A stretch of DNA of 64,000 nucleotides from assembly GCA_013359255.1 (NCBI GenBank), contig JABWCF010000003.1:1-64000 (forward strand), written 5' to 3'. The notes beneath the pieces were generated by a model that was not told where the DNA came from, did no database searches, and saw only the letters and a program-made list of their open reading frames with translations. Below are positions 23,583 to 42,953 of the stretch, piece by piece; positions within the stretch are counted from its first letter, which is position 1, and each line of letters opens with the position of its first letter. The stretch is from Flavobacteriales bacterium. GTDB taxonomy: Bacteria; Bacteroidota; Bacteroidia; Flavobacteriales_E; Vicingaceae. The position numbers and the translations under genes are program-made.

Positions 23583-23589
23583 AACCAAG

Positions 23590-24580: not shown

Positions 24581-24623
24581 TGAAAACCACCTCTTTTACT
24601 ACGCTTGTTTTTTAATTGTTTAT

Positions 24624-24631
24624 TAACTTTG
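24624..24631 (+). promoter_or_regulatory. -7 promoter element of the YfiR/TPR/phosphatase operon
   Basis: TAACTTTG, exact consensus, with TTG at 24605-24607 sixteen bases upstream. It lies 27 bases before the GTG at 24659 and downstream of the longer reading frame's TTG (24605), so it decides the start in favour of the GTG. Confidence 0.55.
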
Positions 24632-24658
24632 GCCTACTTTTTGAATTGGAAAAACCTC

Positions 24659-25180
24659 GTGAAAAGAATTATTTACATAATATCCTTTCTTACCCTCGTT
24701 TCTGCAACTCCTCCGCAAGGACCAGGATACGACACCAATGCAAAAATTAAGTCTGTTTTTATTTACAACTTTACCAAGTACATTGAGTGGCCAAAAAACT
24801 ACCGACAAGGTAATTTTATAGTAGGTGTACTTGGAGAAAGTTCTCTCTATAAAGAACTTGAAAATATGGCTAAAACTAAGAAAGTAGCCAACCAAGATAT
24901 TGAATTAGTTAAATTCAATGATTCGAAAGCTATATCAAATTGCCATATTTTAATTATCCCTCCGGATCGTTCGGACGAACTAAATAACGCCATTAAACAA
25001 GTAAAAAAGAACAGTACCCTCATCATTACTGAAAAAGAAGGTTTAACCAAAGAAGGGGCTGCCATCAATTTTATTGTACAAACCAATAAACAAAAATTTG
25101 AACTAAGTAAAACAAACGTAGAAAAATACAATTTAAAAGTAAACAGCAGTTTAGAATCGTTAGCCATTGTGGTTAACTAA
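24659..25180 (+). CDS. YfiR-family (DUF4154) periplasmic protein
   Basis: A 173-residue secreted protein. The GTG at 24659 starts a signal peptide (VKRIIYIISFLTLVSA) and follows the promoter correctly. The mature part carries the YfiR signatures: IKSVFIYNFTKYIEWPKN near the N-terminus, CHILIIPP and TLIITEKEGL in the middle, and YNLKVNSSLESLAIVV at the end. In Pseudomonas, YfiR is a periplasmic repressor that binds the sensor region of the diguanylate cyclase YfiN and is relieved by redox or envelope stress. Here only one Cys remains, so the disulfide control known there is unlikely. The operon partner is a HAMP-PP2C phosphatase two genes on, not a GGDEF protein; YfiR may bind its periplasmic domain. 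Confidence 0.85.
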   Translation: MKRIIYIISFLTLVSATPPQGPGYDTNAKIKSVFIYNFTKYIEWPKNYRQGNFIVGVLGESSLYKELENMAKTKKVANQDIELVKFNDSKAISNCHILIIPPDRSDELNNAIKQVKKNSTLIITEKEGLTKEGAAINFIVQTNKQKFELSKTNVEKYNLKVNSSLESLAIVVN

Positions 25181-25193: not shown

Positions 25194-26102
25194 ATGCGTA
25201 AATGGACATACATATTACTCTTTACTCTTTTAGCCGGAACACAGCTAAAGGGGCAGGATATTGTCCAACAAGCTTTAATGCACCTTCAAAACAACGAACT
25301 GGAAAGTGCAAAAGAACTTGTAGATAAAGCCATTCAGTTAGATTTATATAACCAAAAAGCCACCACCTGGTTTTACTATGGTTATGTTTACAAAGAACTT
25401 TATAAGGCCAACGATGTAGGAAATATTAACTCAACTAACCTTGAAACAGCTTCTAATGCCTATCTGAAAGCACTAGAAATGGACAATAACCACCCCGAAA
25501 GAAATAATAATATTTTGGGAATAAACTACCTTGCCATTCAATATTACAACATTGCCGGAACCATATTAAATCAAGCCACATTCAACGTAAATATCGACAC
25601 CAATATTATCAACAAAGCCATTACAAATTATGCTCGTTACAAAGAACTTAAAAAAATATCCGAACCAAATTTCAATAACACAGAGCGCGATATCTCCTTC
25701 TACTACCAACTAGGTTCTGCATATCATTTAAAATACGATTCTTCAAAATTTGCCGATAAAAAAAGTGGCAAATATGCCGAGCTCTATTTTGGAAAAGTAC
25801 TTGAACTTGACAATAATAACGTCTCTGCGTTATACAATGTTGGAATCATTTACTACAACGAAGCGGTAGATATAATCAACACCCTCGATTATGATGAGGA
25901 CTTGGAAAAACTAAACAAATCGCTCGATTATTCTATAGAACTTTTTCTGAAAGCACTGCCCTACATGAAAAAAGCCTACGAATTAGAACCAAAAAGAAAA
26001 GAAACAATTGTAGGATTATCGTATATTTACCTCAGTTTAAACGACAACGAGAAATCGGAGCAGTTTAGAAAAGAACTTAAAATGCTCGAAGCAAACGAAT
26101 AA
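25194..26102 (+). CDS. Secreted TPR protein
   Basis: A 302-residue protein with a signal peptide (MRKWTYILLFTLLAGTQLKGQ) and several TPR-like helical hairpins: ALMHLQNNELESAKELVDKA at about 27-46, ASNAYLKALEMDNNHPE at about 83-99, AELYFGKVLELDNNNVSALY at about 193-212, and KKAYELEPKRKETIVGLSYIY near the C-terminus. TPRs are protein-binding scaffolds; as a periplasmic or outer-membrane protein it could hold together the YfiR-like protein and the sensor region of the phosphatase. It starts 13 bases after the YfiR-like gene and ends 5 bases before the phosphatase gene, so the three form one operon. No enzymatic domain is present. Confidence 0.8.
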   Translation: MRKWTYILLFTLLAGTQLKGQDIVQQALMHLQNNELESAKELVDKAIQLDLYNQKATTWFYYGYVYKELYKANDVGNINSTNLETASNAYLKALEMDNNHPERNNNILGINYLAIQYYNIAGTILNQATFNVNIDTNIINKAITNYARYKELKKISEPNFNNTERDISFYYQLGSAYHLKYDSSKFADKKSGKYAELYFGKVLELDNNNVSALYNVGIIYYNEAVDIINTLDYDEDLEKLNKSLDYSIELFLKALPYMKKAYELEPKRKETIVGLSYIYLSLNDNEKSEQFRKELKMLEANE

Positions 26103-26107: not shown

Positions 26108-27898
26108 ATGAGTTTTAGGTTTACTATTGGTAAAAAAATTGGCTTAGGCTTTGGTGCTCTTATTATTCTTACCGTGGGCGTATTTATGGTTACAAACACC
26201 ACACTAAACCAAAGTAAACAAATAAACGATCAAATAAATGATATTTATAACCCTTCTGTTGCAGCACTCGAAGAGTTAAAACTTTTAGGATACCGTTCAA
26301 AACTACTTATTTACACATGGGTATACTCTCCTAGTTCAACAGACGATAACCCCGATAAACTTAGGCTAAACAACCTTACTTTTCAAGATTTTCCCAGAAT
26401 AAAAAAAAGATTGTTCGAACTTTCTGAACACTGGACCAAAGACGAACAGTTTATGATTACCTCGGTATTTTCTGATTTCGAAGATCTCTGGAACTACCAT
26501 AATGAAATCAAATCTCTCCTCAACTCTTTCGAAAGTTACAACGATTCCGAAAATAAATTTTTAGCAGAATTTGAAATTGGAGAAGGAGGAAGAATTTACG
26601 AAAAAACCGATGAAATCATTTTTCAACTCGATGATCTAATAAAACGCCAAAAACTAAAATCAAACAAGGTTACCGAAGAAATGATATCTTCTTTCGATTT
26701 GTTACAATTTTTGGTTCGCTACCTCGGTATAGGGCTTGTCATTGGAGGTATCTTAATCGCCATTTTTACTACTCGAACCATTGTAAAACCCGTTTATTCT
26801 CTTAAAAACATTTTGCTGGGTTTAAGTAAGGGTATTTTCCCTTCTCAAAAACTAAAACCCAGAAACGATGAAATTGGCGAAATGGTAGAAGCAATGGACA
26901 CCTTGGTAGAAGGTTTAAAACGCACCAAGGACTTTGCAGAACAAGTAGGTTCCGGCAATTTCGAGTGGGAATATCAACCCCTTAGTGAAGCCGATGATTT
27001 AGGACATGCCCTTATAAAAATGCGTGATGACTTAGAAGTGAACGAAAGGGAACTAGAAAATAAAGTAAAAGAAAGAACCGCAGAAGTTGTAAAACAAAAA
27101 GAGGAACTGGAACAACAAAGCAAACGCATAGGAGAACTTTACACACAAGTTACAGACAGTATTCGCTATGCAAAACGCCTGCAAGAAGCAATTCTTCCAC
27201 CTCCTACCACAGTAAAAAAATTACTTCCCAACTGCTTTATTTTATATAAACCAAAAGACATTGTGAGCGGAGACTTTTACTGGATGGACGAAAAAAATGG
27301 AAAAGTTTATTATTCAGCTGTTGACTGCACCGGACATGGTGTGCCAGGTGCTTTTATGAGCATAGTAGCGTACAACAATATACAAACTGCATTTAACGAC
27401 CCTACAAATAGTACACCGGCAAACATACTAAATGCATTGAATAAAGGTATTACAAAATCTTTGCACCAAAAAGAAGGAAATACCCGCGATGGAATGGATA
27501 TGGCCATTTGTGCCATAGAAAAAGGCAAAAATTACATCGAATATGCGGGAGCAAATAATGCGTTGTACATCGTACGAAATGGCCAAATATTAGAAACAAA
27601 ACCTAACAAACAAGCCATAGGCTCGTACAATGAAGAGGAAACAAAAGAATTTACCAATCACGTGATAGAGGTTCAGAAAGAAGATATGGTTTACATCTTT
27701 TCCGATGGGTATGCCGACCAATTTGGGGGAGCAAAAGGAAAAAAACTCATGTACAAAAAATTTAGGCAGGTGCTTATCGAAAATGCAGCCCTAAATACAT
27801 ACGAACAGCAAGCTCACCTTAATAACTATATCGAAAACTGGAAAGATAAACTCGAACAAGTTGATGATATTCTTGTAATTGGTTTGCGTATTTCATAA
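26108..27898 (+). CDS. Membrane sensor with HAMP domain and SpoIIE-type PP2C phosphatase
   Basis: A 596-residue two-pass membrane protein. Helix 1 at about 8-29; a helical-bundle periplasmic sensor of about 175 residues; helix 2 at about 204-222 (RYLGIGLVIGGILIAIF); HAMP at about 222-280; a coiled coil at about 305-350 (NKVKERTAEVVKQKEELE); and a SpoIIE/RsbU-type Ser/Thr phosphatase at about 365-596. The metal-binding aspartates are present: D389 (IVSGDFYW), D406 (AVDCTGHGVPGAFMS), the Asp pair in FSDGYADQFGG, and QVDDILVIG at the end. Such proteins usually dephosphorylate an anti-sigma-factor antagonist; none is encoded nearby. It ends an operon with the YfiR-like and TPR proteins. It replaces the GGDEF enzyme that YfiR is known to control. 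Confidence 0.88.
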   Translation: MSFRFTIGKKIGLGFGALIILTVGVFMVTNTTLNQSKQINDQINDIYNPSVAALEELKLLGYRSKLLIYTWVYSPSSTDDNPDKLRLNNLTFQDFPRIKKRLFELSEHWTKDEQFMITSVFSDFEDLWNYHNEIKSLLNSFESYNDSENKFLAEFEIGEGGRIYEKTDEIIFQLDDLIKRQKLKSNKVTEEMISSFDLLQFLVRYLGIGLVIGGILIAIFTTRTIVKPVYSLKNILLGLSKGIFPSQKLKPRNDEIGEMVEAMDTLVEGLKRTKDFAEQVGSGNFEWEYQPLSEADDLGHALIKMRDDLEVNERELENKVKERTAEVVKQKEELEQQSKRIGELYTQVTDSIRYAKRLQEAILPPPTTVKKLLPNCFILYKPKDIVSGDFYWMDEKNGKVYYSAVDCTGHGVPGAFMSIVAYNNIQTAFNDPTNSTPANILNALNKGITKSLHQKEGNTRDGMDMAICAIEKGKNYIEYAGANNALYIVRNGQILETKPNKQAIGSYNEEETKEFTNHVIEVQKEDMVYIFSDGYADQFGGAKGKKLMYKKFRQVLIENAALNTYEQQAHLNNYIENWKDKLEQVDDILVIGLRIS

Positions 27899-27944: not shown

Positions 27945-30521
27945 ATGAAACAATCCTCTTTCAAATTTCTGTTTGCACTTTTCTTTACACTAATATATTC
28001 CAACAGCCTTTACTGCAATATTAACGACACGCCTTGTAATGCCGATACAACTTTGCCCGTTATCCCTTTTGGCTGTAATAATCCCATGCAAACTACTGGT
28101 TATTCATTTGATAATCTTACCGCAAATTGGGAAAATGTTGGTACACAATTTACCGGCTGCAAGGGCGGCACTTTTACCACCCCCGTTGCCGATGTTTGGT
28201 TCAGAGTGATTCCTACTCAAAAAAATTTGATTTTAAACTTAACACAAGGAATGTTTGGTCCCTATTTAGGACAAGCCCGATACACCATATACCAATACAA
28301 CGGAAACTGTAATTCTTTAGTACCCATTCAATGCAAAATAGGGACAACGAGCAACTTAAGTGATACCATTTTTGGCCTCATTCCGCTTACAAAATATTAC
28401 ATTCAAGTAGCAGGGAAAGATATAAACGACAAAGGTAATTTTCAAATCAGTCTATCCTCATACGATTTTTGCACCTCATGTATTTTACACACTTCAATGG
28501 ATGTTAAGCCAGGAAGCGGCATGGGCAATTACCCACCCGATACAGAAGTTCAGTTCTGTATTTCTGTTGTGGGGTACAACCCTGCTAGCCCAAACCAACT
28601 GCATGGCCTATCTTTAAACTTTGGAAACGGGTGGGATATGAACACCTTTTCCAATCTTACCCTTCCGTATTCTGTAAGTGGTACAGGGGCATGGGATTTT
28701 TATCCCTCGATTACCATACATGGAACTAACCACAAAGGCTATTTTTTCGAACCATACTTTTCCAAGAATGGAGACCCTTCCGATAACATAGGCGATCAAG
28801 GAAATAATACCTCCATTTGGATTTTTTGTTTTAAAATAAAAACCAAAGCCGATAATACCTGCAACCAAACTAATAATAACTTAAATGTATTTGCCACTTG
28901 GCACAATGATGCTGAAACGGGTTCTAATTTTCCAAATAATAATTTCTGCCCGGCAGAAGGAAACAAACTTTCGTTTTTTGCTGTTCGTAATTGTTGCGGA
29001 GCTCCCCAACAACTTAATGTTACCAAAACTTCTTGCAAAGGTTTATGCGATGCAAAAGTTCAGCTAACCCAAATAGGCAACAATGCCACTTTTACACTCA
29101 AAGATGCCAACAACAATATGATTGGCTCACCTCAATTTGGGCAAAGCTGTCTGTTTCAGAATCTCTGTGCCAATAAATATACTTTATTTATAGATGCCAT
29201 TGCTTGCACCAATACACTCTCCTTCGAAGTATTAGAAAATGATAGCATATTGGCATTACAAAATGTTTTTGGCTGCGTAGGAGAAGAAAAAAACGAAGCT
29301 TCTGCATTACCATTATACCCTCAACTATTAAATAGGGCTCCTTATTTATACGAATGGGAAAGCTTGCCTCTTTTTCCCTCGTATTTTCTTGCCTATAACC
29401 CCTCTAATACAGCAGCAAACATGCCTGGAGGAGTTTATAATGTTAGAGTAAAAGACAAAAATGGATGCGTTGCGGAAAAAGAGATTATTATTTTTGATAA
29501 ACCAAAAGACAATGCCATCCTTTCCTATTCCAATACCGTTTTTTGCACCAATAGTGCTGCTGCTACACCCACGTTTTCTCCTTCAGGGGGCTCTTTTACA
29601 TCAAGTCCTAACGGATTAAACTTAAATTCTTCAACCGGAGAAATAATCTTCTCTTCATCTACACCTAATACCTATTTTATAACATACAACACAGAGAGCA
29701 ATGCCAATAAATGTGGAGATACAGCCTCCTTCAAAATTACAATTCAACCTCCACCCTCTACTCCTACACTTTCTAAAAATACTTTAGAATATTGCATTAA
29801 TACCTTTGCTGATACCATTTTTGCATTTAATAACCCTCCGGGCACTACCGTTGTTTGGTTAGATCAAAACTTAAACATCGTTGCAACAGGTTTATTCTAT
29901 ATTCCCTCATTTACAAATACTGGACAAGTTACCATTTACGTAGTTTCTTACGATCCGATTACGGGGTGTTACAGTAATCCTACCACATTAACCGTAACCA
30001 TTAAAAATGGAGGGAACATAGATGCCGGAGAAAACCAAACCATCTGCTTCGGACACACTGCATTGCTTGAAGCAAAAGGTAGTGCTTCTGAAATACTTTG
30101 GCAACCGGGGAAAGGGCTTTCCGATAGTACAGCATTTAACACCATTGCCTCGCCAGAAAATACCATAATGTATTATGCTTATGCCAAAAGCAATGATGGT
30201 TGCAATGGGATAGATTCTGTTCTTATAACTGTAGTAACCAAACCTGAATGTGATTTAAAAATTTATTCAGGTTTTACACCAAACATAGATGGTAAAAACG
30301 ACACTTGGCTTATAGATGGAATACGCCTATACCCCGATAACAATGTGAAAATTTTTAACCGGTGGGGAACAAATGTATATGCTGTAAAAAACTACGATAA
30401 CCAACTAAATGTTTGGAAAGGAAAAAACAACGAAGGAAATATTCTGCCTACCGGCACCTATTATTACATAGTAGATATTGGCACAAAAAAATACAAAGGT
30501 TGGGTTGAATTAACACGTTAA
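27945..30521 (+). CDS. Large secreted T9SS type B protein
   Basis: An 858-residue protein with signal peptide (MKQSSFKFLFALFFTLIYSNS). Residues about 30-185 are a Cys-containing beta-sandwich like the N-terminal domain of other gliding-associated surface proteins (ADVWFRVIPTQKN, GQARYTIYQYNGNC, YYIQVAGKD). The middle is a series of Ig/SprB-like domains, Cys-rich at 28.9-29.3 kb and with NAGENQTICFGHTALLEA-type repeats near 680. Residues about 768-858 are the type B sorting domain ([45 protein letters not shown]). It is the first gene of a plus-strand run leading to PorP/SprF, the usual arrangement of an SprB-like adhesin with its dedicated SprF-like barrel. An adhesive or motility role is inferred. 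Confidence 0.87.
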   Translation: MKQSSFKFLFALFFTLIYSNSLYCNINDTPCNADTTLPVIPFGCNNPMQTTGYSFDNLTANWENVGTQFTGCKGGTFTTPVADVWFRVIPTQKNLILNLTQGMFGPYLGQARYTIYQYNGNCNSLVPIQCKIGTTSNLSDTIFGLIPLTKYYIQVAGKDINDKGNFQISLSSYDFCTSCILHTSMDVKPGSGMGNYPPDTEVQFCISVVGYNPASPNQLHGLSLNFGNGWDMNTFSNLTLPYSVSGTGAWDFYPSITIHGTNHKGYFFEPYFSKNGDPSDNIGDQGNNTSIWIFCFKIKTKADNTCNQTNNNLNVFATWHNDAETGSNFPNNNFCPAEGNKLSFFAVRNCCGAPQQLNVTKTSCKGLCDAKVQLTQIGNNATFTLKDANNNMIGSPQFGQSCLFQNLCANKYTLFIDAIACTNTLSFEVLENDSILALQNVFGCVGEEKNEASALPLYPQLLNRAPYLYEWESLPLFPSYFLAYNPSNTAANMPGGVYNVRVKDKNGCVAEKEIIIFDKPKDNAILSYSNTVFCTNSAAATPTFSPSGGSFTSSPNGLNLNSSTGEIIFSSSTPNTYFITYNTESNANKCGDTASFKITIQPPPSTPTLSKNTLEYCINTFADTIFAFNNPPGTTVVWLDQNLNIVATGLFYIPSFTNTGQVTIYVVSYDPITGCYSNPTTLTVTIKNGGNIDAGENQTICFGHTALLEAKGSASEILWQPGKGLSDSTAFNTIASPENTIMYYAYAKSNDGCNGIDSVLITVVTKPECDLKIYSGFTPNIDGKNDTWLIDGIRLYPDNNVKIFNRWGTNVYAVKNYDNQLNVWKGKNNEGNILPTGTYYYIVDIGTKKYKGWVELTR

Positions 30522-30578
30522 TTTTAAAAATAAATTCAATTGTATTGCATACATTCGTACCCTAAAAATTACCCTAAA

Positions 30579-32558
30579 ATGAAAAAAATTATTGCACTAT
30601 TAACTGTTTCATTTTTTTCTTTAATTCAAGTATACTCACAAGGCAGCCCTAATGGCATAAACTACCAAGCTGTTGCCAGAGATTTAGCGGGCGAACCGTT
30701 GGCAAATCAAACCATTGGAACTATAAAGATTTTTATTACTAACGCTACAGGCCTTACCACGTACTATTCCGAAGAACACACAAATGTCCCTACCAATCAG
30801 TTCGGTTTGTTTAATATTATTATTGGTAATGGAATAAACAGATTCCCTAACTCTAACTCAAAAATAAAGGATTTGAAATGGGGGATTAATTCACATCATA
30901 TTAAATTCGAAATTGACGGACAATCTACTTCTCTATTACAATTGCTTTCTGTACCCTATGCCTTTTATGCCGATTCTTCAGGAATTCCAGGGCCTCAGGG
31001 GCCTATTGGCCCTCAAGGAATCCAAGGACTTCAGGGACCTCAAGGTCCTGTTGGAGTTAAAGGCACAACTGGTACAACGGGAGTTACAGGAACTACGGGT
31101 TTAACAGGACCAACAGGACCTGCTCCGACAAATTCCACAGAAGCCACTAGCTCCAATGTTTGGTCCATTTTAGGAAATGCTAACACCTTTCCCGCTTCAC
31201 ACTTCTTAGGCACCACAGACGGACAACCTATCATTTTCAGAACTTTGAATACAGAGAGAATGAGATTACTAAGTACAGGGGAAATTGGAATAGGTACACC
31301 TATTCCTACAGCAAAACTAGAATTGCAAGGAGTTTCAGATATTAATGCACAGGTAAGATCTATAAGAAATGGTGGGGCTACTGCATTTTTTGGTGGTGGC
31401 CAAGTAGGTGGTTACGTTGGTACATTGACAAACCATGATTTTTATTTCAGAACTAATAGCCTAGATAGGATGATTATTACTGCTGCTGGAAATGTTGGCA
31501 TTGGAACTACAAACCCAGACACCCGATTACATTTACTAGGAACAAGTTATGAAAGTTTAAAAATACAAACATCTTCTAACTCTGGTGCAGGAGTACAAAC
31601 AGTTTTCACCACACCTCAAAATGAATGGATAATAGGTTCCCGAAACGATGGTGCCTTTGGTGCTTCAGAAAATTTTGCCATAGCAGATGGCACTGTTCCC
31701 CGCATGGTTTTTGACCAAAATGGAAATGTGGGAATTGGAACAAATGCTCCTTCCCAACGCCTACAAGTTGAACACAATACAGACCATTCTATTAGCATGC
31801 TTGCCCCAAATAATGCAAATATGTACTTAGCTTTTGGAACTCCTGCTCTATATAACAAAGGACTGATACAATATAATAATGCCAGTAATATGATGACCTT
31901 TTGGACAAATAACTCAGAAAAAATGTATATTACATCTGCTGGTGATATTGGTATAGGAACTAATTCTCCGGCAAGTAGATTACACATTTCAGGCAACGGA
32001 TTGTGGTCTTCATTTATTTCTATGCAACATGCTACTGAATGGGCTGCCGGAGTTAATGGAAATGATTTTTTAATTGTAAAAAAGAGTGGTTCAACTTTTA
32101 CTCCATTTCAAATGTATGCCACCGGAGGTTTCGATTTTAACAATGCGGCAGGAACAAATATTGTAAAGATTTTAAATAGTGGAAATGTAGGGATTGGAAC
32201 AAATATCCCAACTGAAAAATTAGCTGTGGTAGGAAATATACGACTGGGCAGTACGGCTCAATTTTATGCAACAGGCGATTCGGAAAATTTACGGATTCTG
32301 CGAGGACACATACAAGGCAATGGAACTATTAGTAGTGGTGCCGGTTTTACAGTAACCAAATTAAGTACAGGATCATACCAAATAAACTTTACTGTTCCTT
32401 TTGGCGGAACTGCAACACCTGTGGCATCTCCAGTTTCTTCAGGAATAATTTGCAGAGTACAAGGTTTTAGTGCTGCATCAATTCAAGTTGATTGTTTTAC
32501 TACCGGGGGAAGTCCACAGGATGCAATATTTACCTTTATAGTTGTAGGCCCAAAATAA
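30579..32558 (+). CDS. Collagen-like secreted protein with tail-fibre-type repeats (copy 1)
   Basis: A 659-residue protein. ATG 30579 ([21 protein letters not shown]) begins a signal peptide; the ORF extends 13 codons further upstream, which I leave out. The N-terminal domain ([20 protein letters not shown]) is a common Bacteroidota surface module. A collagen-like Gly-x-y region at about 136-183 ([20 protein letters not shown], then GTTGTTG units) is followed by a long series of tail-fibre-like repeats with the mark [10 protein letters not shown]/[10 protein letters not shown]. The C-terminus is a beta domain with no T9SS sorting signal. The trimerising Gly-x-y and fibre repeats suggest a thin surface fibre. 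It is a paralog of the next gene. Confidence 0.82.
30985..31125 (+). repeat. Collagen-like coding repeat, copy 1
   Basis: About sixteen Gly-x-y triplets, first of the type GPQ/GIQ/GLQ and then of the type GTT/GVT/GLT, encoded by imperfect 9-bp and 18-bp units. Such arrays change length readily by slippage or recombination. Confidence 0.8.
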
Positions 32559-32636
32559 AATTGACATAAAAAATTTCTTACTATGCAAAATGATTGAAGT
32601 AAGCTTAAAAAATGATATTAACTATATAAAAAACTC

Positions 32637-32644
32637 TACATTTG
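32637..32644 (+). promoter_or_regulatory. -7 promoter element before collagen-like copy 2
   Basis: TACATTTG, exact TAnnTTTG match in the 113-bp gap between the paralogs, 28 bases before the ATG at 32672. It suggests that copy 2 and the T9SS genes after it can be transcribed apart from copy 1. Confidence 0.45.
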
Positions 32645-32671
32645 TGAGACTTTAGTATTAATTCGTAAAAA

Positions 32672-35029
32672 ATGAAAAAAAAACATATCATCACTCTATC
32701 ATTCTTACTGTTTGTTTTTTTTGGCTTATTTGCACAAGGTAGCCCCAATGGCATCAATTATCAGGCGGTTGCAAGAGATTTAGCGGGCGAACCGTTGGCT
32801 AATCAAAACCTGAATGTTAAAATTTTTATTACTAATGCCACAGGATTAACCACCTTTTACAGCGAAGAACACAATGTTACAACCAACCAGTTTGGATTAT
32901 TTACACTGGTTATTGGAACCGGAGGCAATAGATTTCCAAACAGCAATTCTCAAGTAAAATCTTTAGCTTGGGGTACCCAAGCACATTTTATAAAATTTGA
33001 AATAGATGGACAAGCTTCTTCCCTTTTACAACTATTATCGGTTCCCTACGCTTTTTATGCCGATAATTCAGGGAACGGAGGAGTGCAAGGCCCTACCGGA
33101 CCACAAGGAGTTCCCGGTCCTAGTGGTGCAAAAGGTGTTACAGGAACTACCGGAATAACAGGAACTGCCGGTATTACAGGACCAACAGGCCTTACAGGGA
33201 CTACTGGATTACAAGGAATTCCTGGTGTTACAGGAACTACCGGAACAACAGGAATTGCCGGTATTACAGGACCAACAGGAACTACAGGATTACAAGGTCT
33301 TCAGGGTGTTACAGGAGCTAAAGGAACTACCGGTACCACAGGACTTACCGGAGCTACAGGCACTACAGGTGTTGCTGGAACTACCGGTTTAACCGGACCA
33401 ACAGGACCCGCTCCGGCAAATGCCACCGATGCAACGAATGCAAATGTTTGGTCTATTTTAGGAAATGCAAATATCATTCCTGCTTCTCACTTCCTTGGAA
33501 CTACAGATGCACAACCTATCATTTTCAAAACTTCGAATACTGAAAGAATGAGAATATTGTCTACTGGAAATGTTGGAATAGGAACAATTAATCCTCTTCA
33601 ACAATTTACATTATCTCATGCCACTTCCCCCATATTTAGATTAGAAAGATCTGGTTTGAACATGTTCGATTGGGAAGTTTATTCAGATAACACCGGATTT
33701 CATATTAAAGGCGGTGCTGATGGAACAGGTGGTGCTTTAACTGATTATGTAACCATTGATGGAAATGGAAAGGTAGGAATTGGAACCGGTATTCCATCTC
33801 AAAAATTAGATGTAAACGGAAATACCAATATTTTAGGAGATGGTGCAGGAGACCCCTTAGTGGTTCGTTCTCCGATAGACGGCTTTTCATTAACGGTTAA
33901 AGAATCAGATAATGGAAACGTAGCAGCAAGAATTTTTGGGTATGCTACTCGTGGTCGTATGCTTCTTAATAATAATGGAAATCCTGCCATTAATCTCGAT
34001 GCTGATCCAAGCACTTTTTCCTACATTAATGCCGGAAATGTTGGAATTGGCACTTCAATACCTGGCGCCAAGCTACAAATTATTAATACAACAGAAAATA
34101 CAAGTACTGATATTCAGACCACCTTAAATTCTGCATCACCGAAATATGGGATAAATAGCTACAACAATAGCTCTGGAGCAGGCTCTAATTATGGGGGTTA
34201 TTTCTATGTTGCCAATAGTACAATCGATAACTATGCAGTGTATGGAAGTGCTGGGGGTAACAGTGGAACAAAAACCGGACTTTATGGAACAGCAACCGGA
34301 ACAGGAACAAACTATGCATTGCGAAGCAGTGCCGTGGGTGGAACTATCAACTGGGCGGGGTATTTTGATGGGGGAAATGTGTTTATTCAGAACAACTTGG
34401 GAATTGGAACAACATCCCCTGTTTTAAATTTACATATAAATGCTGCTTCGGAAGTTACTCCACCAAGCTCAGGAACCATTGCCGCAGGCATATCTCGCTA
34501 TTCTGTTGGCGGATCGCCCATCGTATTAGATATGGGAATTGTTGATGATATGTATACTGGGGCTTGGCTTCAAGCCCATAACAGCAGTAATATGGCAACC
34601 AATCAACCTATTCTATTAAACCCAAATGGAGGAAACATTGGTATTGGTAGCCTTAATGCCCCCACTGAGAAATTAGATGTTAGCGGATCCGTAAAAATTA
34701 CAGGAACTGTTTCTGAGGAACTTAATCATTCTGCCACTGGATTAGCTAATCTTATTCCTATAGCATATGGGGCCGTTAGCTCTACAGGAGTCATACAATC
34801 TGGAACAGGAAACTTTATTGTTAATTATGCAGGCCTTGGTCAGTATCAAATCATTGTTACAGGTCATGCATTAACACAAACAAATTGTTCTGTTAGCATT
34901 ACTACTTTTAATTCTAATCCACGTTTTGCAGGTTTGGGATCGAGTGGTGGGGGCATTTACATATATATAAGAGATGCATCTTCTACTTTTATAGATAATG
35001 GTTTTTCATTTATTATATACAAACAATGA
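32672..35029 (+). CDS. Collagen-like secreted protein with tail-fibre-type repeats (copy 2)
   Basis: A 785-residue paralog of the previous protein, with the same order of parts: signal peptide ending in FAQ, the [19 protein letters not shown] domain, a collagen-like region about 113 residues long (about 137-250, more than twice that of copy 1), tail-fibre-like repeats ([26 protein letters not shown]), and a C-terminal beta domain unrelated to that of copy 1. In the N-terminal part the two genes share runs of identical bases, so the duplication or a later gene conversion is fairly recent. No T9SS sorting domain is seen. Its last codon overlaps the next ATG as ATGA, tying it to the type B protein downstream; a complex between the two is possible. 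Confidence 0.82.
33080..33415 (+). repeat. Collagen-like coding repeat, copy 2
   Basis: About 37 Gly-x-y triplets, mostly GTT, GIT, GLT, GAT and GPT, built from repeated blocks such as GVTGTTG and GITGPTG. Threonine in the third place, with little Pro, is typical of bacterial collagens whose triple helix may be stabilised by glycosylated Thr. Confidence 0.85.
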
Positions 35030-35781
35030 GTTTTAAAACTTATTATATATTTTTTCTTTTTTTAACCGTTGTTGGGGTTAAAGTTTCTTTTTCTCAAACC
35101 AGCATCGAGCGTCAGGTTTTTGGTACTGCCGGCAAAGCCGAAGCAATAGGTTCTATTGATATTTCCTATACCATAGGAGAAGTTGTTATTACCACAGAAA
35201 CAACAGGCAGCAATATTCTTACACAAGGTTTTCAGCAACCCGAAAAATTTACTTCGCCCGATAGCATTGTGTACGAAAAACAAAATGCCACCTGCAAAGA
35301 TTCAAAAGATGGACTAATAAGAATTATTAGTGTACCTAATTGTACTCTTTCTGTGCTACAAAATTTCTTTTGGAGTGATGGCGATACGTCTCGTATAAGA
35401 ACCAATTTGCCTGCCGGCACTTACATTGCCAATTTTGTTTGTTTATCGGCTCCACTTGATACTATTCGCGATACCATTACCATTGGCTTAGAAAGCGAAG
35501 ACCCTTGTGTACTTAAATTTTACTCGGGCTTTACTCCAAACAAAGATGGAGGCAACGATTATTGGCATATAGAAAATATAGAAGTTTTTCAGCCCAACAG
35601 CATCAACGTATTTAACCGCTGGGGTGATTTGGTATGGACGGGGGAAAACTACGATAATAACACAGTTAAGTGGATAGGCAGGGAATACCGCAAAGATATA
35701 CCCTTACCCGATGGCACGTATTTTTATGTAGCTAAGGTGCAAGATATTATTTACAAAGGTTGGGTAGAATTAACACGTTAA
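35026..35781 (+). CDS. T9SS type B sorting-domain protein, short
   Basis: A 251-residue protein with signal peptide ([24 protein letters not shown]). An N-terminal domain of about 45 residues ([31 protein letters not shown]) is a known small module of T9SS cargo. A SprB-like repeat follows ([14 protein letters not shown]) and then a type B sorting domain ([45 protein letters not shown]). The last nine residues, YKGWVELTR, are identical to those of the 858-residue protein, and the domains are clearly related. It overlaps collagen-like copy 2 by ATGA and precedes PorP/SprF by 10 bases, so it is the likely dedicated cargo or anchor of this T9SS unit. Confidence 0.85.
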
Positions 35782-35791: not shown

Positions 35792-36736
35792 TTGAAAAAT
35801 AAATTGAAAATAAAATTCATTTTGTGCTGCCTTGTAGCCTTACAAAGCAACTCTATGATAGCACAACAAGACCCCCACTATTCGCAGTATATGTTTAACC
35901 CTCTTGGTGTGAATGCCGGTTACACAGGAAGCAGAGAAGCATTGAGTTTAGTAATGTTGCACAGAAGTCAATGGGTGGGCTTTGACGGAGCCCCAAGCAC
36001 TCAAACATTAGCACTACACTCACCTATGAAAAACAAAAACATGGGCTTAGGTTTAATACTAATGAATGATGTGGTAGGTCCTCATTCTACCATTAGTGCA
36101 GCTGCATCTTATGCCTATAGAATAAAATTAGGAGCAGGGAAACTTGCCTTTGGCTTAAAAGCAGGAGTTCAAAACCACCAAATTAAGTGGGATAAAATAG
36201 AATATAAAAATACAAGCGACAATATTCCTGCTTACGGAGTAAATTCGTTAACGGTTCCAAATTTTGATTTTGGAATATATTATAACACCAATTCCTTTTA
36301 TGCCGGATTTGAAATTCAACACTTGAATGCACCGGAATTATATTTTTCCGACTCTTCTGCCACCAACGATTCTGGTGGGGTTGCACGTCTCTTTAGGCAC
36401 GGCACTTTTATTATGGGAAAAGCCTTTCGTATAAGCGAAAGTATCGTTTTTAAACCCTCATTTATTTTGCGTGGAGCAGGAAAAATGGAAGGAATTGGCG
36501 ACTTAAACCTCTGCTTTCTTTTTCACAATAAATTATGGGCTGGTGTATTTTTCCGTTCTAAATACGGACCAGGACTTATGCTTGAATACAACATTACTCC
36601 GCAGTTTAGACTAGGCTATGCATACGATTTAAATACGAATGGATTGGCTAACACTAATAGTGGTTCGCATGAAATATTTATTGGATACGACTTTAATGTA
36701 TTTAAATCAAAAGTAACATCACCACGCTATTTTTAA
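35792..36736 (+). CDS. PorP/SprF-family T9SS outer-membrane barrel
   Basis: A 314-residue outer-membrane beta-barrel of the PorP/SprF family, starting at TTG 35792 with a signal peptide ending in MIAQQ. The family mark is plain: QQDPHYSQYMFNPLGVNAGY, RSQWVGFDGAPSTQTL, NMGLGLILMNDVVGPHS and the C-terminal GSHEIFIGYDF strand. In Flavobacterium, SprF-like proteins sit next to the gene of a large type B adhesin and are needed for its export, so this one probably serves the type B cargo encoded just upstream. The PorE-like protein follows after 9 bases. Confidence 0.93.
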   Translation: MKNKLKIKFILCCLVALQSNSMIAQQDPHYSQYMFNPLGVNAGYTGSREALSLVMLHRSQWVGFDGAPSTQTLALHSPMKNKNMGLGLILMNDVVGPHSTISAAASYAYRIKLGAGKLAFGLKAGVQNHQIKWDKIEYKNTSDNIPAYGVNSLTVPNFDFGIYYNTNSFYAGFEIQHLNAPELYFSDSSATNDSGGVARLFRHGTFIMGKAFRISESIVFKPSFILRGAGKMEGIGDLNLCFLFHNKLWAGVFFRSKYGPGLMLEYNITPQFRLGYAYDLNTNGLANTNSGSHEIFIGYDFNVFKSKVTSPRYF

Positions 36737-36745: not shown

Positions 36746-39055
36746 ATGAACAGAACACAAATTATACTTCTCTTTTTTCTGTTAGGTTTATTCTCTTTTA
36801 ACCTTTCTGCTTCGGCTCAAATGAGTCGTGCCAACACTCTTTATACCCAAGGCAGATATACAGATGCCGCCAAAGTATTTGAAAAGATTGTAAAAAAAGA
36901 AAGTACAAACTACGAAGCCATTTCAAAACTTGCCAGTTGTTACCGCATTTTAAAAGATTATGCAAAAGCTGAAGAATATTATGCAAAAGCAGTAACACTG
37001 CCCAATGCAGATGCAGAGCAACATTTATTGTACGGTCAGGCATTAAAAAACAATAAAAAATTTGCAGAAGCAAAAGAACAGTTTGATTTATATGTACAAA
37101 AAAAACCCTCCTCACTGTTAGGTAAATTGCTGTTACAATCCATCAACGATGTAAAAACATGGGAAAGCGAACCGGCATGGTTTACAGTATCTAGACAAGA
37201 TGATTTAAATTCCGAATTAGCAGATTTCTCACCAACGGTTATAAATAATTACGTTGTTTTTACAACAGAAAGGGAAGAAGATTACGTAAACGAGAACCAA
37301 AACGGAGCAAACAATAAACCTTATTTGACACTTTTTTCTGCCAAGGCCAACGATAATGATTTTCGTTCTTTTTCTAAACCCAAAAGATTTGCCTCATCAC
37401 TCAAATCGCCTTATCATGATGGACCAGCAAGTTTTTCTAAAGCAAGCAATGTGCTTTATTTCAGCCGTTCGGCAAGAGAATTAAAAGGAAATAAAGAAAA
37501 CAAAATAAAAATTTATTACGCAAACAATACCGGCAAGTCCTGGACAAAATCATATCCTTTTCCGTACAACAGCAACGAATATAATACAGCACATCCCGCC
37601 ATTTCAGAAGATGGAAAACTATTATTTTTTGCTTCAGATATGCCCGGAGGACTGGGAGGAATGGATATTTATATGTGCCGTTGGGAAAACAATCAGTGGA
37701 CAAAACCTCAAAATTTAGGCAATGGTGTAAACTCCTCACAAGATGAAGTATTTCCTTCTTTCAGAAACGGAGAACTTTATTTTTCTTCGAACGGTTTACC
37801 CGGTTATGGAGGCCTTGATATATTTGTGTCAAAACTAAATGACAATTTTGAATCATCAGTAAACTTTCGCACTCCATTAAACTCAAATACTGATGATTTT
37901 GGAATTTGCTGGATTGACGATAAAAATGGTTTCTTTTCTTCCGACAGAAGTGGAGGATTAGGGGGCGATGATATTTATCGTTTTAACTTTTTGGGCATAA
38001 AAACTGTTGAAAAAACAAGTATGCAGGGATTGCTGGAATATCAGCAACTACCCATAAGTGGAATGACAGTAAAATTATTAGACGAAAACGATAATGTACT
38101 TCAGGTTACTAAAACTGATAATTCCGGAAAATTTACTTTCGATAAACTAAATGCCGACCAAAAATACATGGTGTTGGTGGACACTAAAGACGAAGGAGTG
38201 CTTACCAATGGTAAAGTGTACCTGACTAATAAAAACGGAGAAAAAGTATTACTCGCAAACAAAATAAAAAGCGGAGTATTTACATTTCAAGCACTACCTG
38301 CCGATAGATATGCTCAAATGCCTATTCTTCAGGAAAAAGATGAGAGTTTATTTACCATAGGTCTTTACGGACAAGTTTACCAACAACTGCCCGGAGATTT
38401 TAACAAGCAAATGGAATTATACGTTGTAGATGATGACGGAAAAATTGTAGCCACCACAAGAACTGACAAAGACGGCAAATTTTATTTCCCTAAATTGTCG
38501 CCCGATGCAAAATACTTTTTTAGAACCGAAGAGGAAGATGGCAGTTTAAAAATTGTGATGCTTACCGAAAATGGAGAAATTTTAGAATCTACTTCTAAAA
38601 AAGGAAAAGATTACGTTTACGTTAGGTTAGACCCCGATAAAAAAAGCATTACACTCCTTAATGAAGAAGATGTGGTGATTAGAATTAAAGTAAACGAAAA
38701 CTTTATCATATCAAATATTTATTACGATTACGATAAAGCCGATATAAACCCCGCTGCGGCAAAAGAACTAGATAAACTGGTAACCATCTTGAAAAAAAAT
38801 AAACATATTGCCGTTGAACTTAGTTCGCACACCGACTCTAGAGCCTCTGATGATTATAACCTTAAATTATCACAAAAAAGGGCTGATGCCGCTGCCGAAT
38901 ATATAATTTCGAAAGGAATTGAAAAGAAAAGAATTTTTGGAAAAGGCTACGGAGAAACTCGCCTGATGAACAAATGCAGTAACGGAATAGAATGCACTGA
39001 AGAAGAACATGGCAAAAACAGAAGAACCGAATTTAAAGTTATTGCCCTGCAATAA
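36746..39055 (+). CDS. PorE-like OmpA protein (TPR, PD40 propeller, regulatory-like domains, OmpA)
   Basis: A 769-residue envelope protein with signal peptide. Parts in order: TPR at about 25-130 (ANTLYTQGRYTDAAKVFEK), WD40/PD40 propeller at about 150-415 (SEDGKLLFFASDMPGGLGGM, LYFSSNGLPGYGGLDIF, NGFFSSDRSGGLGGDDIY), two carboxypeptidase-regulatory-like domains at about 422-500 and 540-615 (ISGMTVKLLDENDNVL, TDKDGKFYFPKL), and an OmpA domain from about 650. The OmpA domain keeps the Asp and Arg for peptidoglycan binding (SSHTDSRASDDYN, SQKRADAAAEY). This is the architecture of Porphyromonas PorE, which anchors the T9SS to the wall. Next to PorP/SprF it fits a tailored copy for this cargo unit. 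Confidence 0.88.
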   Translation: MNRTQIILLFFLLGLFSFNLSASAQMSRANTLYTQGRYTDAAKVFEKIVKKESTNYEAISKLASCYRILKDYAKAEEYYAKAVTLPNADAEQHLLYGQALKNNKKFAEAKEQFDLYVQKKPSSLLGKLLLQSINDVKTWESEPAWFTVSRQDDLNSELADFSPTVINNYVVFTTEREEDYVNENQNGANNKPYLTLFSAKANDNDFRSFSKPKRFASSLKSPYHDGPASFSKASNVLYFSRSARELKGNKENKIKIYYANNTGKSWTKSYPFPYNSNEYNTAHPAISEDGKLLFFASDMPGGLGGMDIYMCRWENNQWTKPQNLGNGVNSSQDEVFPSFRNGELYFSSNGLPGYGGLDIFVSKLNDNFESSVNFRTPLNSNTDDFGICWIDDKNGFFSSDRSGGLGGDDIYRFNFLGIKTVEKTSMQGLLEYQQLPISGMTVKLLDENDNVLQVTKTDNSGKFTFDKLNADQKYMVLVDTKDEGVLTNGKVYLTNKNGEKVLLANKIKSGVFTFQALPADRYAQMPILQEKDESLFTIGLYGQVYQQLPGDFNKQMELYVVDDDGKIVATTRTDKDGKFYFPKLSPDAKYFFRTEEEDGSLKIVMLTENGEILESTSKKGKDYVYVRLDPDKKSITLLNEEDVVIRIKVNENFIISNIYYDYDKADINPAAAKELDKLVTILKKNKHIAVELSSHTDSRASDDYNLKLSQKRADAAAEYIISKGIEKKRIFGKGYGETRLMNKCSNGIECTEEEHGKNRRTEFKVIALQ

Positions 39056-39059: not shown

Positions 39060-42000
39060 ATGTACTTTAAATATGCCGAAGCTTTCTTTCGCTTCGGCAT
39101 ATTTGTTTTCTTATTTTTCCTTTCTCCAGCCTATTTTACACAAAACCACTCTACCATCCACTTTAAGAAACTTGCCTTAAACGATGGGTTATCGCAAAGC
39201 TCTGTAAACTGTATAACGCAAGACCCCTTTGGATTTCTGTGGTTTGGAACACAAGACGGTTTAAACCAATACGATGGGTATTCCTTTAAAATTTTTCAGC
39301 ACGACTTAGCAAACAAACAATCTCTCTCAAACAATTTTATTCATTCTATTACAGCCACACACGATTCTTTTTTGCTTATAGGAACAGAGCGAGGACTTAA
39401 CTTATACAACCCATTTACCAATAGATTTACTTACTTTTTTGAAGATAAAAATTCAGGATTGAACCACAACAATATTTGGAGCGTATTAAAGACAACTAAA
39501 AACCAATACTGGATAGGTACCGAAAAAGGATTGCTTCAATTTAATTACACAGAAAAAAAATTTACAGAAATAATTCTCTCGCCTCTTACCGGAAAAAACT
39601 TAAAAATACGCTCGTTATTCGAAGATTCTAAAAACAGAATTTGGATTGCTACCGAAGGAAACGGAATATACTGCTACAACCCCACTTCTCAAGAAGTAAT
39701 TCATCTCTTTGCAAATACCAATAACAATGTGCTTAGAAATAACCATGTGTGGTGCGTAACCGAAACCGAAAAAAATACTTTTTGGATTGGCACCAACAGC
39801 GGGTTGGATATTTACTACGAAAACCTAAATAAAATTGAACATTTCAACGAATTGAAATTAAATCCGAATTCTTCGGAAAGCACTATAAAGTCATTATTCA
39901 ACGACCATAACGGAAACCTTTGGATAGGCACAAACGGAGCAGGAGTATTTAAGTATAATCTGAAATATAAAAACACGATCTCTTTTAAACACAACAACAC
40001 TCTATTGCATACCATAAGCAATAATGTTATTCTTTCTTTTTACAAAGATTTTACAGGCAGTGTGTGGATAGGTACAGAAGTTGGAATAAATAAATTCGAT
40101 ATCAATAAACAATTTTTTAATCTCTATCAGAAAAGGACCGATAACGAAAATAGTTTAAGCAACAATCTGATATGGTCCGTATTTAAAGATAAAAACATCA
40201 TTTATGTTGGTACAGATGAAGGGCTGGATAAAATAAACACCCTTACTAAAAAAATAACCAACCATAAAATCCCTCTAACCAATAAAAACCTTCAGGCGAA
40301 AAAAGGAATTTACAGCATTTACCGCGATAGTAAAAACATTTTATGGACAGGTACTGACATAGGTTTATATTTTTTCGATGAACAACAAGAAAAAATAATT
40401 CCATTTCATCTAACCCAAAAATTTACAGAGCTTACCCACAGAGTTTACTCCATTTACGAAGACCGTAATCATTTTTTGTGGATTGGCACAAAAGATGGTT
40501 TAATTCTCATTAATCCGGCAAGAAACCAACATTTTTTATATCAGCAATTAGAAAATACTGGATTAGGGCTAAGCGGCAACACCATACGTACTATTACAGA
40601 AGATAAAAAAGGGAACTTATGGTTGGGAATAGATAATGGAGGCTTATGCAAAGCCATCGTTCAAAATGCAGATTACTCCAAGGTTCAGTTTAAAGCATTC
40701 ACTCATCAGTTCGAAAATCCAAGCTCTATTTCAAATAACACCGTTTTATCTATTCATATCGACAAACAAGATATTTTATGGATAGGCACATTCGGGGGCG
40801 GTTTAAATAAATTCAATCCAACCACTGAAAAGTTTGAAAGCATTACCCAAAAAGACGGACTGGCCAATAACGTGGTATATGGAGTATTAGAAGATAAGGA
40901 GCAACAACTGTGGCTGAGTACCAACAGAGGCATTTGCCGCTATGATAAAAACAGCAAACACTTCCTGAATTTCGAACAAAACGATGGTTTGCAAAGCAAC
41001 GAATTTAATGTTGGGGCTTACTTTGCATCAAACGATGGCGAATTCTTTTTTGGAGGCATCAACGGCCTCAACTCTTTTTACCCTTCTGAAATACAAAAAA
41101 ATTTAATACCCCCTAAAATTAATATTACCGGATTTTATCTTTTTAATAACCCTATCACTGAAAATCATAAAATCATAAACGGCTCTTTTCTCAAAGAAGC
41201 TCAAATTAACCTAAATTACAAGCAAAATGTAATTAGTATTGAATATGCCGGCTTGCACTACTCCTATTCCGAAAAAAACAACTACCAATACAAATTAGAG
41301 GGGTTTGACGAAAATTGGATAAACGCAGGGACTGAACGAAAAGCCAATTTCACTAACCTTGATCCTGGCGAATATATTTTTATGGTAAGAGCCTGCAACA
41401 GCGATGGAATATGGAGCAAAGAAACCGCTCAGCTAAAAATTATTGTTACCCCTCCCATTTGGAAAACATGGTGGTTTAGAATTACAGGTATTTGCATTAT
41501 TCTTTTAACCATTTATGTAATATACAAAGTTCGCTTAAATGCCATTGAGGCACAAAAACTTGAATTAGAATGGCAAGTGCAACAACGTACAGCCGAAATA
41601 ATAAAGCAAAAAGAAAAAATAGAAGAGCAAAAAACATTACTAGAAGTAGAAAAAAATAAAGTAGAAAAACTTCTACTAAATATATTACCAGAAGATACCG
41701 TTGAAGAATTAAAATCAAAAGGAAAAGCAAGTGCCCGTAACTACCGTACCGTTTCGGTAATGTTTACCGATTTTAAAGGGTTTACAAAATTGGCCGAAAA
41801 ATTTCGCCCCAAAGAATTGCTTACTGAACTAGATAGTTATTTCATAAAGTTTGACGAAATCATTCAAAAATACAATATAGAGAAAATTAAAACCATGGGC
41901 GATTCCTACATGTGTGCTGGAGGAATACCCATTAGAAATAAAAGCAATCCTATTGACATTGTGCTAGCCGGCCTCGAAATTCAACGATACATACAAGAAA

Positions 42001-42953
42001 TAAAAAAAATAAAAGGAGAAAATGCCTGGAGTTTACGCATTGGTATTAACACCGGAGAACTAATTGCTGGTGTTGTAGGTATAAAAAGATTTGCCTACGA
42101 TATTTGGGGTGATACCGTAAATATTGCCAGCCGAATGGAATCTTCGGGCGAAGAAGATAAAGTAAATATATCGGGGGCCACCTACGAACACATAAAAGAT
42201 TTTTTTGTGTGCGAGTATCGAGGAAAAGTAAAGGCTAAAAACAAAGGTTTTATTGATATGTACTTTGTAAACTCAATAAAGCCAGAACTTTCTGTTAGCG
42301 GAGAAGGTATAGAGCCAAACGAAAACTTCTGGAAGTACGTAAATCTTATTCTTTACAGTAGCATAAATTATAAAAAAGCCGAAAAATTTATTCTAAAAAT
42401 GCTAGAAGAAAAACTGCCCACCAATCTTCATTATCACAGTATATCCCATACAAAAGACGTCTGCCAGGCCATTGAACGCATTGCACTCATGGAGGGAGTA
42501 GTAGGCGAAGAGTTATTCTTACTCAAAACAGCCGCACTTTATCATGATTCTGGTTTTGTGCAGCAATACGAAACAAACGAAGCTATTGGTGCCGATATGG
42601 CCAAAGACGCACTACACCAGTTCGGTTATACACAAGAACAAATAGAAATTGTACAACAACTTATTTTAGCCACCAAAGTACCACAACAACCCCAAAACCA
42701 CCTCGAACAAATTATTTGTGATGCCGATTTAGATTACCTCGGAAGAGACGATTTTCATTCCATAGCCGATAACTTAAAACTTGAATTGTTGGAACGAAAC
42801 AAAATTCAAAACGATAAACAATGGGACGAAATTCAAATTAAATTTTTAGAAGCCCACCATTATTTTACCCAATCTGCCATTCAATTAAGACAAGATAAAA
42901 AATTTAAAAACATTGAAGAAATTAAGAACCGACTTGCCAACTACACAAACTAA
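39060..42953 (+). CDS. Sensor propeller-adenylate cyclase-HD phosphohydrolase fusion protein
   Basis: A 1297-residue single-span membrane protein. ATG 39060, five bases after the PorE-like stop, starts the signal peptide; the frame extends upstream inside the previous gene, which I reject. Residues about 30-690 are two-component-regulator propeller blades (GFLWFGTQDGLNQYDGYSF and repeats of LWIGT). A Y_Y_Y domain (about 735-795), a membrane helix (about 805-824) and a coiled coil (about 830-880) follow. The class III cyclase domain is at about 895-1075, with metal Asp904 and Asp948, ATP-selecting Lys944 and Asp1014, and transition-state Asn1021 and Arg1025, all intact. The C-terminal HD domain (about 1120-1245) has H1130, H1162-D1163 and D1221. 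It probably senses a periplasmic ligand and makes cAMP; the role of the HD part is open. Confidence 0.9.
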   Translation: MYFKYAEAFFRFGIFVFLFFLSPAYFTQNHSTIHFKKLALNDGLSQSSVNCITQDPFGFLWFGTQDGLNQYDGYSFKIFQHDLANKQSLSNNFIHSITATHDSFLLIGTERGLNLYNPFTNRFTYFFEDKNSGLNHNNIWSVLKTTKNQYWIGTEKGLLQFNYTEKKFTEIILSPLTGKNLKIRSLFEDSKNRIWIATEGNGIYCYNPTSQEVIHLFANTNNNVLRNNHVWCVTETEKNTFWIGTNSGLDIYYENLNKIEHFNELKLNPNSSESTIKSLFNDHNGNLWIGTNGAGVFKYNLKYKNTISFKHNNTLLHTISNNVILSFYKDFTGSVWIGTEVGINKFDINKQFFNLYQKRTDNENSLSNNLIWSVFKDKNIIYVGTDEGLDKINTLTKKITNHKIPLTNKNLQAKKGIYSIYRDSKNILWTGTDIGLYFFDEQQEKIIPFHLTQKFTELTHRVYSIYEDRNHFLWIGTKDGLILINPARNQHFLYQQLENTGLGLSGNTIRTITEDKKGNLWLGIDNGGLCKAIVQNADYSKVQFKAFTHQFENPSSISNNTVLSIHIDKQDILWIGTFGGGLNKFNPTTEKFESITQKDGLANNVVYGVLEDKEQQLWLSTNRGICRYDKNSKHFLNFEQNDGLQSNEFNVGAYFASNDGEFFFGGINGLNSFYPSEIQKNLIPPKINITGFYLFNNPITENHKIINGSFLKEAQINLNYKQNVISIEYAGLHYSYSEKNNYQYKLEGFDENWINAGTERKANFTNLDPGEYIFMVRACNSDGIWSKETAQLKIIVTPPIWKTWWFRITGICIILLTIYVIYKVRLNAIEAQKLELEWQVQQRTAEIIKQKEKIEEQKTLLEVEKNKVEKLLLNILPEDTVEELKSKGKASARNYRTVSVMFTDFKGFTKLAEKFRPKELLTELDSYFIKFDEIIQKYNIEKIKTMGDSYMCAGGIPIRNKSNPIDIVLAGLEIQRYIQEIKKIKGENAWSLRIGINTGELIAGVVGIKRFAYDIWGDTVNIASRMESSGEEDKVNISGATYEHIKDFFVCEYRGKVKAKNKGFIDMYFVNSIKPELSVSGEGIEPNENFWKYVNLILYSSINYKKAEKFILKMLEEKLPTNLHYHSISHTKDVCQAIERIALMEGVVGEELFLLKTAALYHDSGFVQQYETNEAIGADMAKDALHQFGYTQEQIEIVQQLILATKVPQQPQNHLEQIICDADLDYLGRDDFHSIADNLKLELLERNKIQNDKQWDEIQIKFLEAHHYFTQSAIQLRQDKKFKNIEEIKNRLANYTN
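39069..39104 (+). terminator. Strong hairpin inside the first codons of the cyclase gene
   Basis: A perfect 14-bp stem (left arm 39069-39082, right arm 39091-39104, eight-base loop), core GCCGAAGC/GCTTCGGC, followed by a T-rich tract (GTTTTCTTATTTTTCC). It begins 14 bases after the stop codon of the PorE-like gene, the place for an intrinsic terminator, yet it lies within the signal-peptide codons of the cyclase. It may end most transcripts of the T9SS unit or act as an attenuator for the cyclase. Confidence 0.65.

Follow-up and report, generated by a model that had tools for sequence, protein, structure and literature searches.

The gene at positions 39060..42953 (+ strand) of the window, which is the whole 64,000-nucleotide stretch analyzed here (positions 1 to 64,000 of contig JABWCF010000003.1, assembly GCA_013359255.1, from a Flavobacteriales bacterium of the Vicingaceae), encodes an inner-membrane protein of 1297 aa that joins a periplasmic sensor, a class III adenylate cyclase (AC) and an HD domain. 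The leading reading of this protein, as judged from its sequence, is that it could be a membrane-spanning cyclic-nucleotide switch, in which one chain would both make and clear cyclic AMP (cAMP) and thereby limit itself. The probability of this reading is put at about 0.55. The AC and HD domains are kept intact together in many relatives and therefore the pair may be a self-limiting switch. No description of a sensor-AC-HD fusion was found in the literature library that was searched.

The protein is encoded by a single unbroken open reading frame that starts with the ATG at 39060 and includes the stop codon. A longer in-frame start at 39009 runs into the upstream gene, and in most relatives the start lies downstream of the upstream stop. 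All of the following parts are on the + strand. An N-terminal signal sequence (residues 1-29, 39060..39146) can be seen in the translation and is overlapped by a terminator-like hairpin that is described below. It is followed by a periplasmic Reg_prop beta-propeller (residues about 30-690, 39147..41129; Pfam Reg_prop E=2.5e-55; PDB 4a2l), a Y_Y_Y domain (residues 734-796, 41259..41447; Pfam E=6.7e-20) and a transmembrane helix (about residues 804-827, 41469..41540), which is the hydrophobic stretch WWFRITGICIILLTIYVIYKV in the translation. Next are a coiled coil and a cyclase-transducer-like segment, LLLNILPEDTVEELK (41553..41729), which are covered by matches to bacterial AC structures and appear in the AC-HD model as a long helix (2-35) and then a second helix (38-47). 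The AC domain (residues 892-1071, 41733..42272; Pfam Guanylate_cyc E=8e-50) is connected by a conserved linker, IKPELSxxGxGxxPN and then a helix (42273..42410; alignment and structure model), to the HD domain (residues 1105-1297, 42372..42950; Pfam HD 1128-1223, E=1.4e-6), which belongs to an AC-linked clade, clade A, discussed below. The domain order given in an earlier note on this DNA (propeller, Y_Y_Y, one helix, coiled coil, class III cyclase, HD) is thus confirmed by Pfam and the translation, and the residues that it named, D904, K944, D948, D1014, N1021, R1025, H1130, H1162-D1163 and D1221, are all present under those numbers. The structure model of the AC-HD part has a predicted local distance difference test score (pLDDT) of 91.5 and a predicted template-modeling score (pTM) of 0.83. 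The conserved linker is confidently folded in this model, which suggests that the AC and HD domains are held in a fixed mutual arrangement.

The class III AC residues are complete and comprise two metal-binding Asp, the Lys and Asp base selectors, and the transition-state Asn and Arg. Across distinct fusions, K944, D948 and N1021 were found in 90/90, D1014 in 88/90, D904 in 86/89 and R1025 in 83/90. ATP is the predicted substrate because Lys and Asp occupy the base-selecting sites, and it is strongly predicted from the sequence that the AC domain makes cAMP as a homodimer. No second PF00211 cyclase is present in the genome, which is of 2.92 Mb. The cyclase region aligns with the structures of mammalian AC9 and of Mycobacterium-type Cya (4p2f/5o5k/7yz9), the latter with the N-terminal transducer included. 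It has in common with such cyclases the catalytic and base-selecting residues and the LLLNILP transducer-like segment, and it differs from them in the C-terminal HD domain and the propeller input. Two other fusions (L051 and L089) have an altered transition-state Arg (R1025A/H) together with a change of Q1259 to Asn in the HD domain.

The fusion is not restricted to this genome. A search of 100 related genomes with the AC-HD part showed that, by a count from the hit table, about 41 of the 45 members of the same family carry the full-length fusion, and that it also occurs in at least seven further families of the class. The 80 top-ranking named loci included 61 with the order propeller-(Y_Y_Y)-AC-HD and 16 with AC-HD but no detected propeller, from genera such as Brumimicrobium, Fluviicola, Crocinitomix and Lishizhenia; because this list is biased to close matches, it indicates breadth rather than frequency. 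The concern that no homologs would exist outside close relatives does not hold, since the fusion is old and widespread, and its conservation reaches well past what the earlier note could see. A scan of viral contigs with the HD domain found no relatives. The inputs attached to AC-HD vary and include the propeller (about 1300 aa), a bare membrane helix with a coiled coil (about 515 aa), tetratricopeptide repeats (TPR; about 904 aa) and GAF. Judged by sequence, the active-site residues of AC-HD are under strong constraint. In the HD domain, Y1125, H1126, H1130, H1162, D1163, E1174, D1221, D1223 and H1266 are invariant in 90/90 distinct fusions, and the metal ligands and neighboring polar residues are kept in unfused proteins too.

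AC-HD is a conserved module with swapped inputs, because the input domain is exchangeable and because sensors of the same kind drive other outputs in this genome. The product of 39060..42953 possesses the blades, the Y_Y_Y domain and the one membrane helix of a Reg_prop/Y_Y_Y sensor, and its periplasmic part is homologous, over the propeller and Y_Y_Y domain, to the BT4663-type sensor structure 4a2l (E=6.6e-122). These features are common to it and to the hybrid two-component system (HTCS) sensors of Bacteroidota (BT4663 4a2l, 3v9f, 3ott), in which the output is HisKA/HATPase, whereas here it is AC and HD. It had been stated that such sensors normally drive histidine kinases. This is not so in this genome, in which the six Reg_prop/Y_Y_Y sensors whose output was read comprise only two histidine kinases, along with three SpoIIE phosphatases and the one AC-HD protein. 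One sensor of this type in the genome (L244, 730 aa) has a LytS-type His_kinase output.

The HD domain can be linked to cyclases through its own family. A split with SH-aLRT 99 divides the HD tree into two clades. Clade A comprises every AC-fused HD domain, unfused HD proteins near cyclases, and one protein in which HD is fused to a cyclic-nucleotide-monophosphate-binding (cNMP_binding) domain and SpoIIE. Its sister, clade B, holds HD-PycTM proteins and other unfused HD proteins. The two clades do not differ in their catalytic residues. At position 1259, however, Gln is found in 115/118 clade A sequences (27/27 of those that are unfused) and in 0/32 of clade B, and R1277 has the same pattern. 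The motif Q1259-x-x-F1262 thus marks clade A, whether fused or not, and is missing from clade B. In a phylum-wide draw of unfused HD proteins, a class III cyclase was found within 5 kb at 9/40 loci, whereas the numbers of cyclases in the genomes concerned predict 0.34, so the association is well over chance. Of these nine loci, three belong to clade B and their AC matches are weak (E 2e-6 to 2e-8), which leaves a clean signal of 6/14 clade A loci vs 0.11 expected. Within the class, all 17 sampled genomes that carry clade A have a class III cyclase, against 19/55 of those that do not (Fisher 6e-7); the count is 15/15 when the two genomes whose cyclase is HD-fused are left out, with shared ancestry uncorrected in these figures. 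Cyclic-nucleotide hydrolysis is thus the leading guess for the substrate, because the HD family is tied to class III cyclases.

Several members of the family deserve mention. The HD-cNMP_binding-SpoIIE protein (L055:5313-7334, 673 aa) has a cNMP domain with the canonical Glu and Arg. The HD-PycTM proteins (L161, L164, L165, L169, L170 and L171) are of ~400 aa and contain an intact HD domain and a Pycsar-type effector domain; some of their genomes have no class III cyclase. The present genome also possesses an unfused HD paralog (G000:C31:52174-52746; L061, L245) of 38% identity, located just 3' of a D-Ala-D-Ala carboxypeptidase gene.

The HD domain has the H...HD...D metal ligands and the all-helical fold of the HD superfamily. 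Its model (pLDDT 96.6) is closest to the HD hydrolases 2pq7 and ADP-bound YpgQ, and then to the phosphodiesterases (PDEs) PDE5 and PDE4. YpgQ (5dqv/5dqw) superimposes with a template-modeling (TM) score of 0.63-0.65; about 16-18% of the structurally aligned residues are identical, and the metal site is in common. In the profile search, 2pq7 was matched with E=6e-7, PDE9A with 0.009 and YpgQ with 0.009. Since 2pq7, YpgQ and the PDEs are all near, the fold alone does not decide between a phosphodiesterase and a pyrophosphohydrolase, and the context described above is more telling. The domain does possess two motifs, H-x3-H (H1126, H1130) and Q1259-x-x-F1262, that may correspond to motifs of class I PDEs. 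The second is reminiscent of the base-holding Gln and Phe of class I PDEs (PDE4D Q369, F372), to which it may be structurally equivalent. Plant YpgQ-like HD proteins (AtCN-PDE1/BDPDE1), which have the HD fold and the H...HD...D site in common with this domain, have been reported to cleave cAMP and cGMP (PMC8431786); the Q-x-x-F motif and the cyclase linkage are found here. From Q-x-x-F, the H-x3-H likeness and the cAMP/cGMP cleavage by the plant proteins, we infer that clade A is a putative cyclic-nucleotide phosphodiesterase family.

Some observations weigh against the reading of a one-chain cAMP switch. The HD domain matches 2pq7 best and, in its fold, also YpgQ, which is a nucleotide pyrophosphohydrolase; the PDEs rank behind these. 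PDEase_I (PF00233) had no match in the product of 39060..42953 at E<=0.01; in the HD family it was sub-threshold (0.0016 in the paralog), over the metal-site region, and it was above the cut-off in no genome of the phylum sample. HDSGF stands in place of HDxxH, the class I PDE signature with the second-metal His, and the alignment gives HD, a small residue and Gly. No cyclase was found near the unfused HD gene at 31/40 loci. Clade B HD proteins are present in many genomes without any class III cyclase, and therefore the HD family as a whole is not tied to cAMP. Finally, the canonical cAMP-binding Glu/Arg (CRP-type) was found in 0/8 cNMP-binding proteins of the genome; as all eight are without this pair, no canonical cAMP receptor was identified in it.

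The HD domain could instead be a YpgQ-like nucleotide pyrophosphohydrolase or nucleotidase that acts on ATP, dNTPs or by-products. The AC domain would still make cAMP, and the HD domain would adjust the amount of substrate available or restrain the cyclase by using up its ATP. This is rather unlikely. The nearest folds are those of 2pq7 and ADP-bound YpgQ, the profile match to 2pq7 is the E=6e-7 given above, and a mononuclear H...HD...D site is typical for HD phosphatases (PMC8177086). However, such an enzyme would not account for the cNMP-binding fusion, for the selective association with class III cyclases or for the Q-x-x-F of clade A, and the plant proteins reported to cleave cAMP and cGMP are themselves YpgQ-like. 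There is a smaller chance that the HD domain is catalytically weak or silent and regulates the cyclase allosterically by binding a nucleotide, through sensing of product or metal. The close packing through the conserved structured linker is in keeping with this, as are two fusions of a shorter relative (L052 and L053) in which the AC domain is degenerate (D904E, D1014T) and the HD domain is intact. Yet the metal ligands and polar neighbors are invariant in the unfused proteins as well as in 90/90 fusions, which goes beyond what binding needs.

It is very improbable that the HD domain acts on another signaling nucleotide (ppGpp, c-di-AMP or c-di-GMP) and links two messenger systems. Enzymes of the HD superfamily do act on all three (PMC8177086). 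The extra His pair and the GYP of HD-GYP/PgpH proteins are nevertheless lacking, and no synthetase of ppGpp, c-di-AMP or c-di-GMP was seen linked to HD in the loci examined. The earlier note had listed c-di-GMP among the substrates to be assayed. It can be rejected, as the extra histidines of the HD-GYP signature (H..HD..H..HH..D, as defined in PMC8177086) and GYP are absent from the HD alignment and no GGDEF proteins were found in the genome.

The cAMP switch would possibly operate as follows. A dimer of the periplasmic propeller and Y_Y_Y domains would bind a ligand of the envelope or from outside, as the HTCS sensor family suggests. The signal would pass via the one helix, the coiled coil and the cyclase-transducer segment and set the activity of the AC homodimer, for which the residues strongly predict cAMP formation. 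The HD domain, kept near by the structured linker, would then hydrolyze the 3',5'-cyclic nucleotide. Since the same chain would make and clear the messenger, its basal level would be expected to be low and its pulse short. The input is probably the status of the envelope or surface layer, because the gene closes a conserved signaling cluster and, in this family, lies directly after a PorP-PorE unit of the type IX secretion system (T9SS).

This cluster is conserved and of ~18 kb, with the order histidine kinase-response regulator-ferritin-YfiR-TPR-SpoIIE-[T9SS surface proteins-PorP-PorE]-AC-HD. All of its genes are on the + strand and were assigned by Pfam. Its outer end is formed by the histidine kinase, response regulator and ferritin genes (21298..24149), which are in the same order in G001 and G013, with ferritin also in G018. 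These are followed by genes for a YfiR-like DUF4154 protein (24605..25180), a TPR protein (25194..26102) and a SpoIIE-type phosphatase with N-terminal membrane segments (26108..27898). Four surface-protein genes (27945..35781) encode two proteins with the CHU_C (type B C-terminal domain) T9SS signal (27945-30521, 35026-35781) and two collagen-like proteins (30540-32558, 32672-35029). A PorP/SprF-like outer-membrane protein (35792..36736; E=1.3e-73) and a PorE-like protein (36746..39055) complete the T9SS unit. The latter has TPR, PD40 propeller-repeat, carboxypeptidase-regulatory and OmpA parts, which agree with the description of PorE (PMC9143113). Its gene ends 4 nt before the AC-HD gene, so the placement of the AC-HD gene directly after a T9SS surface unit proved correct, and this order is kept in the family. 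An intrinsic-terminator-like hairpin with a 15-bp stem and a T tract (39068..39105, +; RNA z=-7.4) begins 12 nt past the PorE-like stop and lies within codons 4-16 of the AC-HD reading frame. The stem is shared with a genome of the same genus (G001). The hairpin could attenuate AC-HD expression, or translation could relieve it.

The T9SS order is found 5' of AC-HD in nearly all family loci with enough upstream sequence, the propeller-less ones included. At seven loci with a propeller-less AC-HD of about 515 aa (L051, L212, L213, L216, L217, L218 and L231), the adjacent PorE-like protein is of about 1100 aa, compared with the usual length of about 770 aa. The longer PorE-like proteins carry extra carboxypeptidase-regulatory/SdrD_B-like repeats, and both long forms are present at L219 and L224. 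The order from histidine kinase to SpoIIE is kept in G001, in G013, and in G018 as far as the sequence reaches. Three members of the family that have the shorter form or are more distant did not show it 5' of the T9SS genes, and neither did G014 within the stretch read. SpoIIE, YfiR-like and TPR genes are linked to AC-HD in other families as well. In loci of the Crocinitomicaceae type, AC-HD follows ferritin, or ferritin-YfiR-TPR-SpoIIE, and T9SS genes are absent, which narrows the idea that the T9SS unit was the ancestral partner of AC-HD. The simplest reading is that the signaling cluster is older and that the T9SS unit was inserted later, or was lost elsewhere.

Several known systems can be compared with this one. 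MpCAPE, the combined adenylyl cyclase and phosphodiesterase of Marchantia (PMC5159850), likewise unites in one chain a class III AC and a hydrolase of the HD fold that has H-x3-H. The PDE half of MpCAPE cannot do without the two H-x3-H histidines, and H1126 and H1130 agree with them by motif. In this plant protein a class I PDE is N-terminal and the AC is C-terminal, and both activities have been measured, whereas here the order is reversed, the HD domain is of a separate family and the activities are predicted. With Pycsar (PycC and PycTM), the connection is through clade B, the sister clade, which includes PycTM fusions. Membership in Pycsar was rejected, as the similarity to PycC is that of class III in general; the AC residues are of the ATP type, and no PycTM or PycTIR effector partner was found among the scanned neighbors of the AC-HD gene. 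Membership in PorZ was rejected too (NCBIfam PorZ 142 bits vs a cut-off of 260), the similarity being of the propeller only. The YfiBNR system has YfiR-family proteins, OmpA-domain proteins and membrane-bound signaling outputs in common with the cluster, and in it a membrane cyclase is under the control of YfiR and an OmpA-domain protein (PMC2837407). Because of this control, an analogous envelope circuit at the locus is possible, as a speculation. It is an analogy and not membership, since the output of YfiBNR is HAMP-GGDEF and here it is a SpoIIE phosphatase and AC-HD in a genome without GGDEF. A wider proposal is tentative. Clade A might be the Bacteroidota's own HD-type cyclic-nucleotide phosphodiesterases, fused or linked to class III cyclases repeatedly, and the present protein an envelope-driven one-chain cAMP switch at the output end of a circuit like YfiBNR (YfiR, the OmpA-domain PorE, SpoIIE and AC-HD). 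This circuit would be coupled to the T9SS surface layer in bacteria without c-di-GMP.

To our knowledge, little is on record about cAMP signaling in Bacteroidota. If the switch is true, a maker and a remover of cAMP would be named in one protein. There would also be a candidate new phosphodiesterase family, with Q1259 as a candidate specificity residue. Cyclic-nucleotide signaling would be tied to a T9SS surface unit, and the CAPE proteins of plants would have a counterpart in bacteria.

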